Positions 20,332 through 30,963 of a stretch of DNA of 64,000 bases are shown in pieces (within the stretch, counting starts at the first letter, position 1; each line of letters starts with the position of its first letter). The notes beneath the pieces were generated by a model that worked only from the letters and a program-made list of their open reading frames with translations, had not been told where the DNA came from and made no database searches. Source of the stretch: Nitrospira sp. (GTDB lineage Bacteria; Nitrospirota; Nitrospiria; Nitrospirales; Nitrospiraceae); NCBI GenBank assembly GCA_005116745.1, contig SWDS01000010.1, forward strand, positions 504,552 to 568,551. The letters are read 5' to 3'. The translations under genes were made by a program, and so were the position numbers.

Positions 20332-20554
20332 ACTTCGTAAACTACTCACATGATCTGAGAAGGGTGAGGCGTGAGTGTGAAGCTGAAGAATAATGAGGTG
20401 CGTATGGCTTCATCCAAGGCCTTGCGACTGTGATCAAAATGACTCCTGCATCCATTGAAGAATCATAAGACGTAGTCATTCGGAACAGAATCAGCCGAAT
20501 TGCGTCAAGAAAAATGGAACGGTGTCAGGTTTCATTCAGAAAAGGAGCGAGAGT

Positions 20555-20974
20555 ATGAGGGCAACTTGTGTAGCTATGTTAGTGCTCTTCACGCTGCTCG
20601 TGACGTGGCCCATGGCAACTTACGCCACGGAACATGAGACTCCGAGGGCACCGGAACCATTCCTCAAGATGACCAATCCGGTCCCCCATACCACCGACAC
20701 GCTGCAAGAGGCCAAAAGCCTCTACGAGAACCGATGCAGCAAGTGCCACGGCTCCAATGGGGATGGCAAAGGATCCGCCACCAAGGACATGGACGTCAAA
20801 CCAAGAAATTACACGGCCAAATCCCTGATGGAAACGATACCGGACGGACAGTTGTTCTGGATTATCTGCTATGGCAGCGATCCGGACATCACAGAAATGA
20901 AGGGATACAAGAAGAAGCTCTCGGACGAGCAGATGTGGAGTCTCGTGCACTATATTCGGTCTTTTGCACGGTAG
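20555..20974 (+). CDS. Monohaem cytochrome c
   Basis: A 139-residue periplasmic class I c-type cytochrome. The signal peptide ends near ATYATE. The haem motif CSKCHGSNGDGKG sits at Cys-61/Cys-64/His-65, and Met-115 (DITEMKGY) is a plausible sixth ligand. The fold ends with the usual SDEQMWSLVHYIRSF helix. The ATG at 20555 follows an AAGGAG ribosome-binding site. The gene is 26 bases before the cytochrome-porin gene, so it is a likely soluble electron partner for that protein. It lies downstream of the 11-bp repeat promoter at 20262. Confidence 0.92.
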   Translation: MRATCVAMLVLFTLLVTWPMATYATEHETPRAPEPFLKMTNPVPHTTDTLQEAKSLYENRCSKCHGSNGDGKGSATKDMDVKPRNYTAKSLMETIPDGQLFWIICYGSDPDITEMKGYKKKLSDEQMWSLVHYIRSFAR

Positions 20975-21000
20975 CGTGCCTCAATCTAATGGGAGGAATC

Positions 21001-22275
21001 ATGCGTATTCGGGTGTTGATGTTGGCCGTTATACTCGGCAGTCTGGCCTCGGGGCTCGTGGCGATGCTCGCGCCTCAGGAGGCGGCGGCGATTCCGGCGT
21101 TTAGTCGGCAAACCGGAGAATCGTGTTCGACGTGCCATACGGCGTTTCCCAAACTGAACCAAACGGGGCAAAACTTTCGCACCAATGGTTTTCGCTTTCC
21201 CGAAGACAAAGAGTGGCACGACATCCAAGATATGAAACATGTCCCGATTTCAGGCGAGGTCGAGGTTGAAGCGGAATTCACCAAGGAACGCGGTGTGGGT
21301 GCCGGGGGCCAGGAGACCTTGCTGAAGATTGATGAAGTCGCACTTTTGGCAGGTGCTCCAATTGGGAAAGAGGGCCGGGTGTCCGCGTATGGCGTGCTGG
21401 ATTTCGCCCAAGGTAATGTCAATGTGGGGCAGGCCTACGGGCAAGTCAACGATCTCGTGGGAACGACCGGCCAGGGCTTGCTCAATCTCAAAGTCGGGCA
21501 GTTCGATATTGCCCTCCCGTTTCTCTCACACTCGCAACGGGTGATTAAACAGCGCTACTTTGCGCAAGAAGCGCTCGGCATCCTGGGCGCGCGTCGGAAC
21601 GGTGGCAGTACCGAGGCAGAGGCACCGGAAGTCTACAACACCGGGGTGGAGATCAATGGACACCTGATCCAGAAAGAGCTGCTGGGAGGCATCACCCATC
21701 GCTATGCCATTGGGATCTTTCAACCAAAATCGCTCGGGGGGATCAACCATCTAGGCTTTCCGGGGCTCTATGCGACCTATTCCATTCACTTTCTTGAGCG
21801 CTTTACGATAGGCGCCATTTATAAACGTGATGTGGTGACGTCCGCGTTAGATCCTTTTACAATCGATGGCAAAAAAGGCGTCGATAAGTGGGGTATCGCG
21901 GGGGAAGTGAAGCTGGGTCCGTTCATCGCCACGGCCGGGTATTTTCGCTCTGATGGCCTCCCCGCGACTGGCAATGGGGCTTTAACAAATGCTACCTACA
22001 ACAGAGCGCTCCAGAACTATATGGCGGAGGTCTTGTTTATTCCCCACGATATCCCGTTCATCCCCACCAAGAAATTCGTGCTCGGGGGCCGCTTCGATCA
22101 TATCGATCAGGAGCTCGCACAATCGAGCAGTCGCACGACCGTGATGGGTCGGTACTACATTGCCCCCAGCGTGTACCTTCAGGGAGAATGGCGCGTCCAT
22201 GACGGTGGCGGTGTGGCGGGCGCCTCATCGCAAGATTCCTATGCCGCCCGAGGCTTCCTCGTCGCGCTGTATTAA
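21001..22275 (+). CDS. Cyc2-like fused cytochrome-porin
   Basis: A 424-residue protein joining an N-terminal c-type haem segment to an outer-membrane beta-barrel. The signal peptide ends near Ala-30. The haem motif CSTCH is at 42-46 within IPAFSRQTGESCSTCHTAFP, followed by PKLNQTGQNFRTNGFRFP. This arrangement of RQTG, CxxCH, FP, L, G and F/NG resembles the Cyc2 family of fused outer-membrane iron-oxidising cytochromes. The rest is alternating beta-strand sequence ending in FLVALY. A GGGAGG ribosome-binding site precedes the ATG. Membership of this architecture is well supported, but the electron donor is unknown. Confidence 0.82.
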   Translation: MRIRVLMLAVILGSLASGLVAMLAPQEAAAIPAFSRQTGESCSTCHTAFPKLNQTGQNFRTNGFRFPEDKEWHDIQDMKHVPISGEVEVEAEFTKERGVGAGGQETLLKIDEVALLAGAPIGKEGRVSAYGVLDFAQGNVNVGQAYGQVNDLVGTTGQGLLNLKVGQFDIALPFLSHSQRVIKQRYFAQEALGILGARRNGGSTEAEAPEVYNTGVEINGHLIQKELLGGITHRYAIGIFQPKSLGGINHLGFPGLYATYSIHFLERFTIGAIYKRDVVTSALDPFTIDGKKGVDKWGIAGEVKLGPFIATAGYFRSDGLPATGNGALTNATYNRALQNYMAEVLFIPHDIPFIPTKKFVLGGRFDHIDQELAQSSSRTTVMGRYYIAPSVYLQGEWRVHDGGGVAGASSQDSYAARGFLVALY

Positions 22276-22400
22276 GGTGCTGACTGACAGCGTCTGGTTC
22301 GTGATAGGGGAAGCATGGGTAAGGCCATCGCACATGATATGAGAGCCAGTAACCGTCTTGTACGGCACCGCACTGAATCGGTGGTGCAGGAGCTTCTCGA

Positions 22401-23333
22401 ATGAATAGCATAAGGGTCGGCGTTCCATTTCTGGTGAGCGTGGTGTGCCTGCTCATCAGTGCTTGTGCGACGTCTCGCACAGTCGAAGACACCGTCTTTG
22501 CGGATGGTCCTCGAGGCGCCGTGTTGCTCCAACGCGTGGACGATGCATGGTTCAGGACCGCCCACCCCGTCTCGGCGAGCCCTCTCCTACTCACTCATGT
22601 GTTGCGTGGCGTCCAGATTCACCCAGCACCCGACGACCAGACCACGGCCGTGCGGGTCTTTTCTGACGAAGAGATCGCCTTTCTCAGCCCGTTGATGAGT
22701 ACGGCCCTCTCCAAAGCCGCCAAAAGCCAGCTCGTGGCCTTCCGCGTCACCCATGACTCTGGTCCCAACAGTGAAATGACGGGTGGGCTGCTGTTTACCA
22801 GGGGACGGATCCTGCATCTGTGGCTGACCCAGTACCGGGCGAACGGTGCCAGAAACAACTCGGGGGCCACGCTGGATCGTCAGGCTCGCAATCCGCACGG
22901 ACTGGCACCTCGTCAGCTGCGTTTTGTTCCAGAAACGGTTCAGCGGTCCAGTCGCAATCAACAACCGGACGTGATCGATCCTCCTCCCCTCGCCACGCTC
23001 ATGATCGACTACACCATGCTTGCCACCGAATTGAACCTGCCGTCCGAGGCTGCGCCATCTCAGCCGCTCCATGGAGATGAGCCTCTGCTGAACCACGCCG
23101 ACACGCAGTCTGTTCGACCCGATCATGGCCTTCCCGCTTCTCAAGACACACCACCGTCAGCTGCCGAAGAGACGCGGGCGCTCAAAGCCGTGGTGAAGGA
23201 ACAAGCCCTCGAACTCGATGCCCTCAAAGACGATGTGCGGGCGTTGCGTCAGCGGCTCTCCGAGATGGAGCCACACTCGCCACAGCTGACAGCACCGCCA
23301 ATGGCTCCAGCGCGACGCGAGAAGACCCCCTAA
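22401..23333 (+). CDS. Hypothetical lipoprotein with C-terminal coiled coil, family member 3
   Basis: A 310-residue protein with a lipoprotein signal (LISAC lipobox, lipidated Cys near 25). Residues ~75-150 align with the lipoproteins at 12420 and 14791: VFSDEEIAFLSPLMSTALSK corresponds to their VFT..LAPELSKAL block, and GGLLFTRGRILHLWL to KGVAFVHGDELHLII. The homology is weaker than between the other two. A Pro/Gln-rich linker leads to a coiled coil at about 255-290 (EETRALKAVVKEQALELDAL). It follows the cytochrome-porin by 125 bases and may be its envelope partner, which is inferred from position only. Confidence 0.72.
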   Translation: MNSIRVGVPFLVSVVCLLISACATSRTVEDTVFADGPRGAVLLQRVDDAWFRTAHPVSASPLLLTHVLRGVQIHPAPDDQTTAVRVFSDEEIAFLSPLMSTALSKAAKSQLVAFRVTHDSGPNSEMTGGLLFTRGRILHLWLTQYRANGARNNSGATLDRQARNPHGLAPRQLRFVPETVQRSSRNQQPDVIDPPPLATLMIDYTMLATELNLPSEAAPSQPLHGDEPLLNHADTQSVRPDHGLPASQDTPPSAAEETRALKAVVKEQALELDALKDDVRALRQRLSEMEPHSPQLTAPPMAPARREKTP

Positions 23334-23474
23334 AAGGGTACTCCTTGGCTGACAGGAGAGTCTGATCGACAAACACCGACCGTTGGATACGGAGCCCGCG
23401 CACTGACCAGTGGCCCCCAGCGGGGTCGAGCCCGACCAACGATCCTATGGAAAGTCTTATGAGTGAGTCCGACA

Positions 23475-23834
23475 ATGGCTACGATTCTTCTGGTTGAAGA
23501 TCATGCAGTCCTCCGGAAAGCGCTTCGACGTCAGTTAGAGGCAGACGGTTATCGGGTTGTGGAAGCTGCGGATGGGAACGAGGCGATTCACTGTTGGCGT
23601 ATGCACGCGCCTGACGTGATCATTACTGACTTCCAGCTTCCTCACCTGAATGGGAGGGAGGTCATCCAGGTGGTGTCGGCCCAACAACCGGCCCTTCCAA
23701 TCATTCTAATGTCCGGCGGAATGGACGAGCAATTGCGCGTGTGTATCCTGCATCAGTATCCATCAGTGCGCTATCTTGCAAAAGATGTCGTCAGCACTCA
23801 ACTATGCTCGTCTGTACGAGACGCCCTGCTGTAA
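23475..23834 (+). CDS. Receiver-only response regulator
   Basis: A 119-residue CheY-like single receiver domain with no output domain. The acidic pair is in LVEDH, the phospho-acceptor Asp in DVIITDFQLP, a Ser in ILMSGG, and the conserved Lys in YLAKDV. The ATG at 23475 was preferred to the GTG at 23463. It may act through protein contacts or a phosphorelay. No kinase is directly adjacent; the nearest is at 17182. It lies 141 bases after lipoprotein 3. Confidence 0.88.
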   Translation: MATILLVEDHAVLRKALRRQLEADGYRVVEAADGNEAIHCWRMHAPDVIITDFQLPHLNGREVIQVVSAQQPALPIILMSGGMDEQLRVCILHQYPSVRYLAKDVVSTQLCSSVRDALL

Positions 23835-24191
23835 CGCGTCTTGTTTCCGATCGACATTCAGTGCCGGTGACCGCCGGCGAGCGAGGCAAGAGATCGACTG
23901 GACGGTGTGGCGAAGTTTGTTCCTCGTGCAACTGACGAGACGTGCCTAGAGGCCGCTAACGGATGGAGGGGGACCTTGGCGCCCACCGAGGTTGTGCGTC
24001 TCATGTCCTCCCGGGAGAGACGCCCCTCCATCCCATCCCAGTCAACCGAGTTTCTATCACTCACAATGGTACGCGCTGAATTCCATCAGATAGACGCTCT
24101 ACAGGACCGATAGCAATGCAACAGCAATAGAAGGTGTACAATAGCACCGGTGTGTCAGGGCCGCTCTTCACACAGGGTAACGAGGTCGCTC
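23835..24191. other. Intergenic region without a gene
   Basis: About 357 bases between the receiver gene and the small cytochrome. The open frames here are short and lack homology or ribosome-binding sites. A TACAAT hexamer at 24137-24142 could be a -10 box for the gene at 24192, but no good -35 is present. Nothing else was recognised. Confidence 0.35.
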
Positions 24192-24515
24192 ATGTATGCA
24201 CGAGCCGTTATACTCTTTGTGGGGGTGGTACTGTCCGGATTTGTGCTGGTCGCGGCTCCAAGAACGGCAATCGCGATTCCTGCCATGAGTCGACAGACGG
24301 GTGAGCCCTGTTCCACGTGCCACGACGTCATTCCAAAACTGAACCCCACGGGTCAGAAGTTTCGCGCAAACGGACTCAGATTTCCAGGATGCACAGAGCG
24401 GGACACCACACCGAATGTGACGCCTGTGCCGCGTTCGGAGGAGAAGAAGATCGATGCACCACCTTCACCAGCGGAGAGCGGCCTCGAAACTGTTCCTGCA
24501 AAACGTGATAACTGA
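24192..24515 (+). CDS. Orphan haem module of the cytochrome-porin family
   Basis: A 107-residue protein that copies only the haem segment of the Cyc2-like protein at 21001. The signal peptide ends near Ala-28, then IPAMSRQTGEPCSTCH (haem ligands Cys-40, Cys-43, His-44), VIPKLNPTGQKFRANGLRFP, and an unrelated ~40-residue polar tail. It has no beta-barrel. It may be a degenerate fragment of a duplicated gene or a small soluble or anchored cytochrome in its own right. The intact reading frame, signal peptide and haem motif favour expression. An insertion sequence begins 116 bases after its stop. Confidence 0.72.
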   Translation: MYARAVILFVGVVLSGFVLVAAPRTAIAIPAMSRQTGEPCSTCHDVIPKLNPTGQKFRANGLRFPGCTERDTTPNVTPVPRSEEKKIDAPPSPAESGLETVPAKRDN

Positions 24516-24631
24516 TCTCCCCGGGAGTGTGCCGATTTCTGATCTAGTCGAGCCCGGTTGTTGCGCACTATCGGCTGCAGCGCGCGCGTCGAGCACAGCC
24601 AGTACCGACTTCTCCTCCTCTGAACACCGCG

Positions 24632-24651
24632 CTAGGAGCCTGTCCGACATT
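24632..24651 (+). repeat. IS left terminal inverted repeat
   Basis: Twenty bases that match the reverse complement of 26234-26253 exactly. They begin with the palindromic CTAG that may be the duplicated target. Confidence 0.92.
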
Positions 24652-24728
24652 AACCCTCACGCACTTGTATGCAGCCTCAGGCTCCTGTAGAAGCATTGCT
24701 ACGTAATGAGAAGCAAGGAGGTTGCGTC

Positions 24729-26156
24729 ATGCCCACCCGAACCTTTCGCCCCTACGAGCCTGACGATCTGTGGCTGTTACCGCCGTCGCCGCGAGAGTGG
24801 TTGCCGGAGGCGCACCTGGCCTACTTCCTGTCGGATCTGGTCGATGCATTGGATCTGAAGCCGATCCTGGCGACCTATCGGGGCGTGACGCGCGGCACGG
24901 TGCCGTATCATCCCCAGTTGCTGGTGAAGGTGCTGCTCTATGCCTACGCGGTTGGGGTTCCGGCGTCGCGGCAGATTGCGCGGGAACTGGAAGAGGATGT
25001 GGCCTTTCGGGTGCTGGCGGCGAACCAGCGGCCGGATTTCCGGACGATCAGCGACTTTCGGAAACAGCATCTGACTGCCTTGGCCGACTTGTTCATCCAG
25101 GTCCTGAAGCTCTGCCAGCGAGCGGGTCTGGTGAAGCTGGGGCACATCGCGCTGGATGGCACCAAGATCAAGGCGAATGCCTCGAAGCACAAGGCGATGA
25201 GTTATGGGCGGATGGTGACGGAGGACGCGCGGCTGCGGGCGGAGGTGCAGCGGCTGCTGACACAAGCGGAGGTCGCTGATGCCCGGGATGAGGTGGCGTA
25301 TGGCTCGGACCGGCGGGGCGATGAATTGCCTGCCGAACTCGCGCGCCGGGAACACCGACTGGAGACCATTCGGGCGGCCAAGACGGTGCTAGAGCAGGAG
25401 ACCCAGGCAGAGGCGGCGCTCCGGCAAGCGGCACAGGACGCTTGGCCGTCGAAGAAGCCCCGTCGGGGTCGGCCGCCGTCGCCGCCCAGTCCGGTCCCAT
25501 CCCCGAAGGCCCAGCGCAACTTCACTGACCCGGAGAGCCGGATCATGCCGGCATCGGACACCAAGGGGAGTGTCGTCCAAGGGTACAACTGTCAGGCCGC
25601 CGTCGACGCACGGGCGCAGATCATCGTTGCCGCGGACATCACCGATGAGTCGAATGACAAACAGCAAGCCCAGCCGATGCTGACGCAGGTGCTGGTGAAT
25701 ACCGAGCAGATCCCCCGGACCGTGAGTATGGACGCGGGCTATTTCAGCGAGGCGAACGTCGTGGCTCTCACGGCGCTGGGCTGTACGCCGCTCATTCCGC
25801 CGGACCGCCAACTCCATCGCCAGGTGGTACCTGCCGTCCCCCGAGGCCGACCGCCAGTGGGATTGTCGGTGGCCGATCGCATGCGCCGCACACTCCGGAC
25901 ACAACGCGGGCGACAACGCTATGCCCGGCGCAAAGCGATTGTCGAACCGGTGTTCGGCCAGATCAAGCAGGGTCGTGGCTATCGGCAATTCTTGTTGCGC
26001 GGGATGCGGCAGGTGCGCGGGGAATGGACGCTCATCGGTACCACGCACAATGTCCTGAAACTCTGGACGGCCTTGCGCCGGGTCCGCCGACGTCCCGGCG
26101 AGGGCCTGCGGGCATTGGGCAGAAGCCAGCGGGCAAAGCGGAACGCCCAGCGGTAG
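24729..26156 (+). CDS. IS1182-family DDE transposase
   Basis: A 475-residue transposase that cuts and joins the element ends. The N-terminal half carries the DUF772-type region (SREWLP-like start, PYHPQLLVKVLLYAY). The catalytic DDE residues are visible as the Asp in LDGTKIKANAS, the Asp in MDAGYFSE and the Glu in VEPVFGQIKQG. The ATG at 24729 follows a strong AAGGAGG site. Its base composition (about two-thirds G+C by eye) is higher than in neighbouring genes, as expected for recent arrival. It appears functional. Confidence 0.93.
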   Translation: MPTRTFRPYEPDDLWLLPPSPREWLPEAHLAYFLSDLVDALDLKPILATYRGVTRGTVPYHPQLLVKVLLYAYAVGVPASRQIARELEEDVAFRVLAANQRPDFRTISDFRKQHLTALADLFIQVLKLCQRAGLVKLGHIALDGTKIKANASKHKAMSYGRMVTEDARLRAEVQRLLTQAEVADARDEVAYGSDRRGDELPAELARREHRLETIRAAKTVLEQETQAEAALRQAAQDAWPSKKPRRGRPPSPPSPVPSPKAQRNFTDPESRIMPASDTKGSVVQGYNCQAAVDARAQIIVAADITDESNDKQQAQPMLTQVLVNTEQIPRTVSMDAGYFSEANVVALTALGCTPLIPPDRQLHRQVVPAVPRGRPPVGLSVADRMRRTLRTQRGRQRYARRKAIVEPVFGQIKQGRGYRQFLLRGMRQVRGEWTLIGTTHNVLKLWTALRRVRRRPGEGLRALGRSQRAKRNAQR

Positions 26157-26233
26157 CCGACAACTGCCAAAGATCATCCGTGTGCGCCGTGCAAATTCTG
26201 GATCAGCGAGGAAGATCAGGCTGCGCTCAGATC

Positions 26234-26253
26234 AATGTCGGACAGGCTCCTAG
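26234..26253 (-). repeat. IS right terminal inverted repeat
   Basis: Perfect 20-base inverted partner of 24632-24651, ending in CTAG. Confidence 0.92.
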
Positions 26254-26343
26254 GCTTCACATCTGCACACGCCTGCTTCCAAATGTGAGCTAAGATCTCT
26301 TCTCTTCGAGTCTGTAGAAGGCGCTTCTCCAGCTCCTTCTCGT

Positions 26344-26411
26344 TTCTTACCAATTTCTCATCTTGCGCTCATTCGCTTCTTATATTTTCCGAGTACGATC
26401 ACGACCTAGGT
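26344..26411 (+). promoter_or_regulatory. Second copy of the Pho-box-like 11-bp repeat promoter
   Basis: Repeat units at exact 11-base spacing: TTCTTAC (26344), TTCTCAT (26355), CGCTCAT (26366), TTCTTAT (26377) and a weak TCCGAGT (26388). The first 19 bases are identical to those at 20262-20280. The two regions align without gaps to a shared ACGACCT just before the -10 position, where this copy has CTAGGT instead of CATAAT. It lies about 42 bases ahead of the GTG of the receiver gene at 26453, and so ahead of the whole glycan operon. Confidence 0.68.
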
Positions 26412-26452
26412 CAGGTTGCGAGACTCCCCACATTCTCAGGAAAGGCAAGACT

Positions 26453-26848
26453 GTGCACATCCTGATCGTCGAAGACGATGAGCGAATTGTTGGTTTCATG
26501 AAGCGCGGGCTTGAAGCTGAAGACTTCAACATAGATGTTGCTTCAGGAACGTCTCAAGCCATCGATATGGTCAACGCCCGATTCTACGACCTTCTCATTA
26601 TCGATATCTTTCTCGGGGCGGATGACGGACTCGATCTCTGCCGCTCACTTCGCCAGCGACGAGTCGGATCTCCTATCCTGATCATGACCGCCAAAGGTAC
26701 ACCGGAAACGGAACAGGCGAGCAAGGAGGCGGGTGCGGATGCATACCTCGCGAAACCCTTTGCATTCGAAGACCTGATTGCCACAATCGCACGTTTTCGT
26801 ACGCCCGCTTCTCCCTCTGAACACCGAAGGGAAGTTTATGCAAAGTAG
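26453..26848 (+). CDS. Receiver-only response regulator heading the glycan operon
   Basis: A 131-residue single receiver domain without a DNA-binding part. The acidic pocket is VEDDE, the phospho-acceptor Asp is in LLIIDIFLG, and the Lys is in YLAKPFAFEDL. It starts with GTG at 26453 behind AGGAAAGG. Its sequence is close to the receiver half of the regulator at 19516 (DERI.xF.xRGLEAE, KPFAFE), so it may be a truncated relative. A likely job is to take phosphate from the same kinase and control glycan production by protein contact. Its stop overlaps the next small frame. Confidence 0.85.
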   Translation: MHILIVEDDERIVGFMKRGLEAEDFNIDVASGTSQAIDMVNARFYDLLIIDIFLGADDGLDLCRSLRQRRVGSPILIMTAKGTPETEQASKEAGADAYLAKPFAFEDLIATIARFRTPASPSEHRREVYAK

Positions 26849-28332: not shown

Positions 28333-30963
28333 ATGTCGACCGAATCCACCATGAAGAAGATCGGCTATCTCCTTAAAATTTTCCCCAAGGTCTCGGAGAC
28401 GTTCATTCTTCAAGAGGTCCTGGACTTGGAAGCGCTGGACGTGAATCTTTCGATATACGCTCTCCAATCCCCAACCGATACCATCACCCACGGCTTGGCC
28501 GCTCAGGTACGCGCATCTGTCACCTATTTGCCTGATTCGCTTTTGACCTTTTGTGAAAACCCATTTTGGGCCCACCTGCGTCTGTTCATGGGGTCTCCCC
28601 GACGCTATCTGTCGACCCTGCGCTTCTGGCTTCAAACTGCAGAGCACCCATCGTGGCAAAAACTCGTCCAGGCAGGCTCCCTAGCCGCTGCCCTTCAGGA
28701 CGACCGTATCGACCACCTCCATGTCCATTTTGCAAATGCACCCACAAGCGTTGCGGAACTGACTCATCGCTTTACGGGAATCCCCTACAGTATGACAGGG
28801 CATGCGAAAGACATCTTCCTGGCAACTCCGTCTACCCTCCGCCGGAAAATGCGCCATGCAGCATTCGTCATCACCTGCACTGAACATAATCGCCAGTATC
28901 TCCACGACCTATCAGGCAACGGCACGCCGCTCCACTGTCTCTACCACGGTCTGAATCTGGATCGTTTCGATCAGCTCGGCACGGCCCACCCAGTAAGACG
29001 TTCGACGATTCCCATCATCGTGAGTGTGGGACGGTTGCGCGACAAAAAGGGATTCCCCACACTCATCCGCGCGTGTCATCTGCTGGCCACCCGTGGCTAT
29101 CGCTTTCACTGCCGCATTGTCGGATGCGGACCGCTTCAGACCGATCTTGAAACCTTGATCCGCGAGTTGGACCTCGAGCAGGTCGTCACATTGGTCGGAC
29201 AAAAAACGCTCGAAGAAGTGGTGAAACTGTACCAAGAGGCTGACATCTTTGCTTTACCCTGTCAGGTATCTGAAGACGGCGATCGTGATGGGATTCCCAA
29301 TGTCCTCATGGAAGCCATGGCCTGTCGACTCCCTGTCGTCACCACGGAGATTTCCGGCATCCCGGAACTCGTTCGGCATGATCACAATGGTTTCCTGGTT
29401 CCCCAACAAGACCCGGAAGCCTTCGCGCTGGCTCTGGCCCACCTTCTGGACAATCCAGCAATCCGTCAACGCCTAGGGCAGACCGGGCGTGAAACCATTG
29501 CGCAGCGATTTTCTTCCAGCCATGCAAGCCATCGCCTGAGAGCCCTCTTCCTCAATGAATCGACATCGGCCCATCCAGAGCTTCTTCTGAATACGCCTGA
29601 ACCATTCTCCCGCCCCACGCACGACGAGGCACCCCATCGGGTCGGATATATCTTGAAAGGATTCCCCCGCCGATCGGAAGCCTTCATCACGAATGAGATT
29701 GTGCTCTTGGAGCAGATGGGGCTTCAGCTTCATCTCTTCTCTGCCTTTCAGGGCGAAGCGAATTGTACCGGACCCCACAGGAAGACCGTTATGTCACCGC
29801 TGACCTATCTACCCGAGGACAGCGACAACACAGACAGCGGATTTGTGCCTTGGCTAATCGCAAACATTCCCCGGTATTGCTCCAGTCATATTCGACTGCT
29901 CTCCAGAGTTCCAGGCCGATATCTGCGCACCGCATGGGAAGCCTGGACACTCAGCCTACGCTGCCGAAGCACGTTCTTCTCATGGCCGAAGAAAGTGTTC
30001 TACAAGGACTTTCTCCGTGCCGGTTCGATTGCCAGTTTCGTGCTCGATGCGGGAAACATTCGCCATCTGCATGCCCATTTTTGCCATGGAGCGACGACTA
30101 TGGCCATGTTTGCCGGTCTATTGAGTGATCTCCCCTTTAGCTTTACCGCCCATGCCAAAGATATCTACTTGCCAAAACTCAATCCCGGCGATCTTCTGCG
30201 CCTCAAATTGCGCCGGGCAAAGTTTGTGGTGACCTGCACCGGCGCGAACCACCATCACTTGCAAGAGGTTTGCTCACAGGGTGCGCCGATCCATACCATC
30301 TATCATGGCGTCGATACGGCTCGCTTCGCTCCCTCCGTTGATCGACAGGTTCCTCCGATTCCGACGATCCTCTCGGTCGGACGCTTTGTGGAGAAGAAAG
30401 GGTTTCCCTTCTTGATCGAGGCCTGCCGCATCATCAGAGAGCATGGATTGCCGTTTCACTGCCGAATCGTCGGTGAGCCGGATGAACAGACGGATCTGGT
30501 ACAGGACTTGATTCGCCGGTATCACCTCGAACAGGAGGTTTCAATCGGCTCTGGCGTATCGCAAGAGGAACTCCGCGCGATCTATCAGGGATCGACCATC
30601 TTCGTCCTTCCTTGTCATATCGTAGATAACGGTGATCGTGACGGGATTCCAAACGTCTTGGCGGAAGCCATGGCCTCCGGCGTCCCGGTCATTTCGACCG
30701 CAGTCTCCGGCATTCCAGAATTGATTGACGATCGATGCAACGGGCTTCTTGTCGCGCCACGCGACCCAGTGGCCCTCGCCAAAGCCATCGAAGAACTGCT
30801 GGTCGACGCTGACTTCCGGAACAGTCTCGCCCAGGCAGGGCGTGAAACAATTTGCCGAATCTTCGACTCACGCAAGACAACGAGAACACTCTTTGATCTC
30901 TTTCAGGCAGAAGCGGCTGAGGCTACCGCCCACCAGCAGGAGGCCCATGCTGCTTGCCACTAG
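28333..30963 (+). CDS. Tandem GT4-GT4 glycosyltransferase fusion
   Basis: An 876-residue protein made of two homologous GT4-type glycosyltransferases in a row, about residues 8-415 and 435-865. Matching landmarks in each half are GYLLKIFPKVSETFI / GYILKGFPRRSEAFI, GHAKDIF / AHAKDIY, LYHGLNLDRF / IYHGVDTARF, GRLRDKKGFP / GRFVEKKGFP and DRDGIPNVLMEAMA / DRDGIPNVLAEAMA. The usual E-x7-E motif is D-x7-E in both halves. Both active sites look complete, so it could add two sugars in succession. The next gene starts 17 bases before its stop. Confidence 0.88.
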   Translation: MSTESTMKKIGYLLKIFPKVSETFILQEVLDLEALDVNLSIYALQSPTDTITHGLAAQVRASVTYLPDSLLTFCENPFWAHLRLFMGSPRRYLSTLRFWLQTAEHPSWQKLVQAGSLAAALQDDRIDHLHVHFANAPTSVAELTHRFTGIPYSMTGHAKDIFLATPSTLRRKMRHAAFVITCTEHNRQYLHDLSGNGTPLHCLYHGLNLDRFDQLGTAHPVRRSTIPIIVSVGRLRDKKGFPTLIRACHLLATRGYRFHCRIVGCGPLQTDLETLIRELDLEQVVTLVGQKTLEEVVKLYQEADIFALPCQVSEDGDRDGIPNVLMEAMACRLPVVTTEISGIPELVRHDHNGFLVPQQDPEAFALALAHLLDNPAIRQRLGQTGRETIAQRFSSSHASHRLRALFLNESTSAHPELLLNTPEPFSRPTHDEAPHRVGYILKGFPRRSEAFITNEIVLLEQMGLQLHLFSAFQGEANCTGPHRKTVMSPLTYLPEDSDNTDSGFVPWLIANIPRYCSSHIRLLSRVPGRYLRTAWEAWTLSLRCRSTFFSWPKKVFYKDFLRAGSIASFVLDAGNIRHLHAHFCHGATTMAMFAGLLSDLPFSFTAHAKDIYLPKLNPGDLLRLKLRRAKFVVTCTGANHHHLQEVCSQGAPIHTIYHGVDTARFAPSVDRQVPPIPTILSVGRFVEKKGFPFLIEACRIIREHGLPFHCRIVGEPDEQTDLVQDLIRRYHLEQEVSIGSGVSQEELRAIYQGSTIFVLPCHIVDNGDRDGIPNVLAEAMASGVPVISTAVSGIPELIDDRCNGLLVAPRDPVALAKAIEELLVDADFRNSLAQAGRETICRIFDSRKTTRTLFDLFQAEAAEATAHQQEAHAACH

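Follow-up and report, generated by a model that had tools for sequence, protein, structure and literature searches.

A short Cyc2-like haem-domain gene that lacks the barrel and is probably a free periplasmic cytochrome, beside a cytochrome-porin gene of Nitrospira

The short gene at 24192-24515 of the window (the 64,000-nucleotide stretch of Nitrospira sp. DNA that was analysed, in whose coordinates its features are given, those from 20522 to 26848 all on the plus strand) probably encodes a working monohaem cytochrome, free in the periplasm and descended from a haem domain like that of Cyc2, and it lies in the same cluster as a full-length Cyc2-type cytochrome-porin gene. The gene, found in the list of open reading frames and conserved among relatives, specifies 107 residues, and an in-frame GTG at 24150 could add 14 more. 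A signal peptide (MYARAVILFVGVVLSGFVLVAAPRTAIA, followed by IPAMS; 24192-24275), whose cleavage position was deduced from the sequence, ends in TAIA/IP and retains its alanine-rich cut site among the relatives. The haem segment (24273-24386; AIPAMSRQTGEPCSTCHDVIPKLNPTGQKFRANGLRFP) comprises 38 codons that were aligned with porin N-termini, and it contains the only CXXCH of the protein, the haem c attachment motif CSTCH (24309-24323). The remainder (24387-24512) is a polar, proline-rich tail that appears unconstrained in the alignment of relatives. An earlier note, made from the sequence alone, had described a protein that keeps the signal peptide and the whole haem segment and lacks a barrel, and this description holds on both counts, a search of all frames downstream having given no further porin match. 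We infer from these features that the protein is exported, loaded with haem and located in the periplasm. For the short protein AF2 gave a model of low confidence (pLDDT 61, pTM 0.22), a Pfam match to MCR (E 0.023, below the cut-off) was taken as chance, and Rfam rendered no match across the window. No sigma-70-like promoter or terminator pattern was found near the short gene, which counts against a function.

Proteins of the Cyc2 type are defined by a CXXCH with PXL just downstream, a motif AXPXFAR[Q/K][T/Y] upstream and a C-terminal 16-strand porin (PMC8406198). Judged by sequence and predicted fold, the 424-residue product of the neighbouring gene at 21001-22275 is such a protein, with a signal peptide, a single CXXCH and the series AIPAFSRQT...CSTCH...PKL, which is one position (S for A) off the Cyc2 motif. 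Its AF2 model (26 relatives), of moderate confidence (pLDDT 63, pTM 0.69), has 16 strands, the first of which (residues 83-97) lies behind the haem segment. The top solved match to this model in Foldseek is the phosphate porin OprP (2o4v, E 7.7e-10), with OprO close behind, the same two proteins that have been reported as templates for Cyc2 (PMC8406198); matches of the porin profile to PDB sequences (E above 0.2) were taken as chance. The short protein is 54% identical to the N-terminus of this porin over 85 residues, and a search of the window's genome (G000, 3.86 Mb) with it recovered the porin far above chance (E 4.5e-22), as well as a second porin-cytochrome on contig 4 (E 3.3e-20) and, more weakly, a third on contig 6 (E 2.9e-9). 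Like Cyc2 proteins, including Leptospirillum Cyt572, which belongs to Cyc2 cluster 3, the short protein has a signal peptide, one CXXCH, a region of the form AxPx..R[QK][TY] before it and PxL after it (CSTCH-DVI-PKL). The full upstream motif is not kept, AIPAMSRQT having M and S in place of F and A, and the short protein, unlike Cyc2 proteins and its full-length neighbour with an OprP-like barrel, has no 16-strand porin. Among the short forms the motif reads AIPAMSR[QK]T in the window, G019, G067, G062 and G032, and AIP[AV]FS[RQ]QT in G065, G280 and G444. A general role of this Met (AIPAMSR) as axial ligand of the short forms was ruled out, since F is found in its place in G065, G280, G444 and G100.

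The same short form, which the earlier note had proposed to look for in related genomes, was found in nine genomes of two genera when overlapping sets of 79 genus, 175 family and 395 phylum genomes were searched. Seven of them (G000, G019, G067, G062, G032, G100 and G065) belong to the genus and two (G280 and G444) to a sister genus, the closest named relatives being the Nitrospira MAGs RSF1 (G019), RSF12 (G067) and UW-LDO-01. Since these are the named relatives and the window's genome carries a gene for the AMO/pMMO A-subunit, it is probably a comammox Nitrospira. In all nine genomes the short form adjoins the porin gene of this cluster, hereafter cluster A, and in none of them does it have a barrel. 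The order in G000, G019, G067, G062 and G032 is cytochrome c, porin, lipoprotein-like gene, CheY-like gene, short gene and response regulator; G100 has the same order, with no CheY match found there, and in G065, G280 and G444 the porin and the lipoprotein-like gene have just the short gene between them. Cluster-B porin genes (contig 4 of the window's genome, G061 and G066) have no short gene alongside. Other apparent short matches could be put down to contig ends (G004, G393), to a copy disrupted by an insertion (G019:C5) or to broken or weak frames (G074, G317, G022 and C6:632206 of the window's own genome). Every copy stands in the same cluster, the 395 Nitrospirota and the 175 family genomes having shown none in any other place, so that the earlier idea of a haem domain that moves as a unit finds no support.

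A recent deletion, a truncation caused by an insertion sequence or a chance open reading frame is extremely improbable as the origin of the short gene. An IS1182-family element (24632-26253, with the transposase at 24669-26156 and 20-bp terminal inverted repeats that include CTAG) does start only 116 bp downstream of the short gene in the window. The same site is however empty in RSF1, where the short gene is intact and its product 99% identical to that of the window, so that the insertion is later than the truncation and irrelevant to it, and IS1182 can be ruled out as its cause. In addition, the same short form recurs in the nine genomes, and a full-length gene at this position, which the earlier note had named as the sign of a simple deletion, was sought by comparing the loci of the relatives and found in none of the nine, which rules out a recent deletion of such a gene.

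The sequences support instead an old tandem duplication, after which the barrel was lost in place. The tails of the short forms of G280, G444 and G065, of the form EDTxxxALQDLKHVPRSAEIxVExE, can be aligned with the linker of the porin and its first beta strand (PEDKEWHDIQDMKHVPISGEVEVEAE); the pattern EDT..ALQDLKHVPRSAEI.VE.E is plainly that of porin linker and first strand, and the tail of G100 is similar (LQELKQIPQSTETGIEA). In the window a worn remnant of this region, VPRSEEKKIDA, can be recognised at 24426-24458 from the alignment of relatives, and the last ca. 18 residues are unrelated to the porin and unconstrained. The tail, described earlier as unrelated, is therefore so only in these last residues, and a trace of linker and first strand precedes them. 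Since these residues remain in the tails of the relatives, the truncation point, on this alignment, is at the first strand or directly behind it. They also support the duplication, together with a partial second lipoprotein-like gene after the porin in G280 (L072 7745-7975); the different gene orders and this extra gene are as expected if a pair of porin and lipoprotein-like genes had been duplicated and different members then lost. Identity between the haem segments of short form and porin is 59-73%, according to which stretch is compared, and the short versions from G000, G062 and G032 are closer to one another (82%) than to the local porin. The proposal that the module was copied from the cytochrome-porin is thus right as to its source, provided that an old duplication is meant by copying. 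In the tree the short forms can be grouped in one clade, if a weakly supported one (74/47, 73% of bootstraps), and they have residues of their own (PCSTCH[DS]V[IV]PKLN); on both grounds gene conversion from the porin is unlikely. By these comparisons, the truncation either predates the split of the two genera or happened independently in each.

The pattern of substitutions bears on whether the gene is still in use. Between G000 and G062 the 38 codons of the haem segment have a dS of 1.02 and a dN of 0.074, that is, a dN/dS of 0.07 (Fisher p 2.2e-7), a rough value, as pairwise counts at dS near 1 over 38 codons are. The ratio is 0.08 for G000-G065 and 0.14 for G000-G280, and the pair G065-G280 (0.39, p 0.1) is too close to show selection. 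The signal peptide has a dN/dS of about 1 between G000 and G062, the tail is unalignable between these two, and flanking genes of the same genomes range from 0.1 to 0.3. From these alignments strong purifying selection is seen on the haem segment only, with signal peptide and tail drifting, which is the pattern of a protein retained for its haem segment. It could also be that a truncated paralogue, once functional and under old purifying selection, is now slowly being lost. The freely drifting tail fits such a decay, and frameshifts could be its visible stages: G067 has lost one base in the tail, and G100 one base within the CXXCH, real or an assembly error; both frameshifts could be due to decay or to assembly. 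We consider this reading unlikely, since the frame of the haem segment is unbroken in 8 of the 9 genomes (in G444 the 5' end of the gene is hidden behind a run of N), the frameshift of G067 leaves the segment wholly untouched, and the ratio of 0.07 was obtained between lineages with dS about 1.

The porin gene is preceded by a gene for a small monohaem cytochrome c (20522-20974; Pfam PF00034, 8e-11) distantly like cytochrome 579, its match to the cytochrome 579 model NF033864 (1.2e-13, 51 bits) being below the cut-off of 280. In Leptospirillum cytochrome 579 is the partner of Cyt572, and the pair of 20522 cytochrome and porin looks like a Cyc572-Cyc579-type arrangement in a comammox-type Nitrospira. 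The porin is followed by a conserved cluster protein (22401-23333) recognised by sequence, Pfam and relatives, whose N-terminus resembles that of a lipoprotein (ISACAT) and whose C-terminus is SlyX-like and probably forms a coiled coil, and by a CheY-like response regulator receiver (23463-23834; PF00072). A further response regulator receiver (26363-26848; open reading frame list and relatives) comes next after the short gene in the relatives free of the insertion sequence. According to the sequences, a Cyc2-type cytochrome-porin gene underwent an old tandem duplication, which in the sister genus seems to have included the gene behind it, and the second copy then lost its whole barrel. The remaining protein would be exported through its signal peptide, bind one covalent haem at CSTCH and most likely act as a small monohaem cytochrome, soluble in the periplasm, passing electrons between the haem of the barrel protein and the 20522 cytochrome c, or else as an accessory acceptor. 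Its partner, whether the barrel protein or the 20522 cytochrome, is a guess. In this proposed role it would resemble cytochrome 579 and the small cytochromes c of the periplasm to which Cyc572 passes electrons, as a small secreted monohaem carrier near a Cyc2-type gene; it differs in having no detectable sequence kinship to cytochrome 579, whose weak resemblance belongs to the 20522 gene.

The earlier suggestion that the short protein serves the barrel protein as a free shuttle is plausible on sequence grounds, and it fits the signal peptide, haem motif, synteny and purifying selection of the short gene. Against a free cytochrome counts the finding that the cytochrome domain of Cyc2 alone could not be expressed in E. 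coli, contacts with the barrel being suggested as needed (Keffer et al. 2021, PMC8406198). The same finding, which suggests a preference for barrel contacts, would suit a detachable plug or partner, with the free haem segment sitting where a barrel, that of its own porin or another, opens to the periplasm, as would the location in the same cluster and the correspondence of the segment to the proposed plug of Cyc2-type barrels. Such a plug would replace or adjoin the built-in haem and tune electron flow or the opening of the pore. We regard this reading as decidedly unlikely, as the adjoining porin retains a haem segment of its own in all genomes whose sequence covers that part of its gene.

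Some further observations concern the genes compared. The porin of G062 (L061 5062-6336) is 95.5% identical to that of the window (dS 0.52), against only about 50-72% (dS up to 1.66) for its neighbours, a contrast suggesting that this gene alone was replaced through recombination. The second porin-cytochrome of RSF1 (G019:C5; L025 1231-1692 / L030 6778-6942) enters foreign sequence right after PKLNQT, and an insertion has apparently disrupted it; the intact counterpart is on contig 4 of the window's genome. The third, more distant haem-porin of that genome (C6; L004 1459-2973) has the exact Cyc2 motif (AIPAFARKY), so that at least three Cyc2-type genes coexist there. In G065 the response regulator after the cluster (L063 4193-4728) is split over two frames, broken or by an assembly error, and at 28333-30963 the window encodes an 876-residue glycosyltransferase-like protein that is internally duplicated, with halves about 40% identical.

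A narrow phrase search of the literature rendered no description of a Cyc2 protein without a barrel. Screens for Cyc2 drop proteins under 365 residues (PMC8406198), far above the length of the short protein, so that barrel-less forms would have been overlooked, and length filters in searches for iron-oxidation genes hide them. We tentatively suggest, as one possibility, that the Cyc2-type haem domain can be an independent, selected soluble cytochrome, and that the short forms make up a barrel-less family in comammox Nitrospira, serving as dedicated partner of the barrel protein. A natural barrel-less version under selection would offer a ready test of whether this haem domain can fold, bind haem and pass on electrons by itself, a point relevant to the way in which Cyc2-type proteins use their single haem together with the barrel. 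Moreover, the Cyc2-type clusters in comammox-type Nitrospira raise the question of which electron donor or sink they serve.
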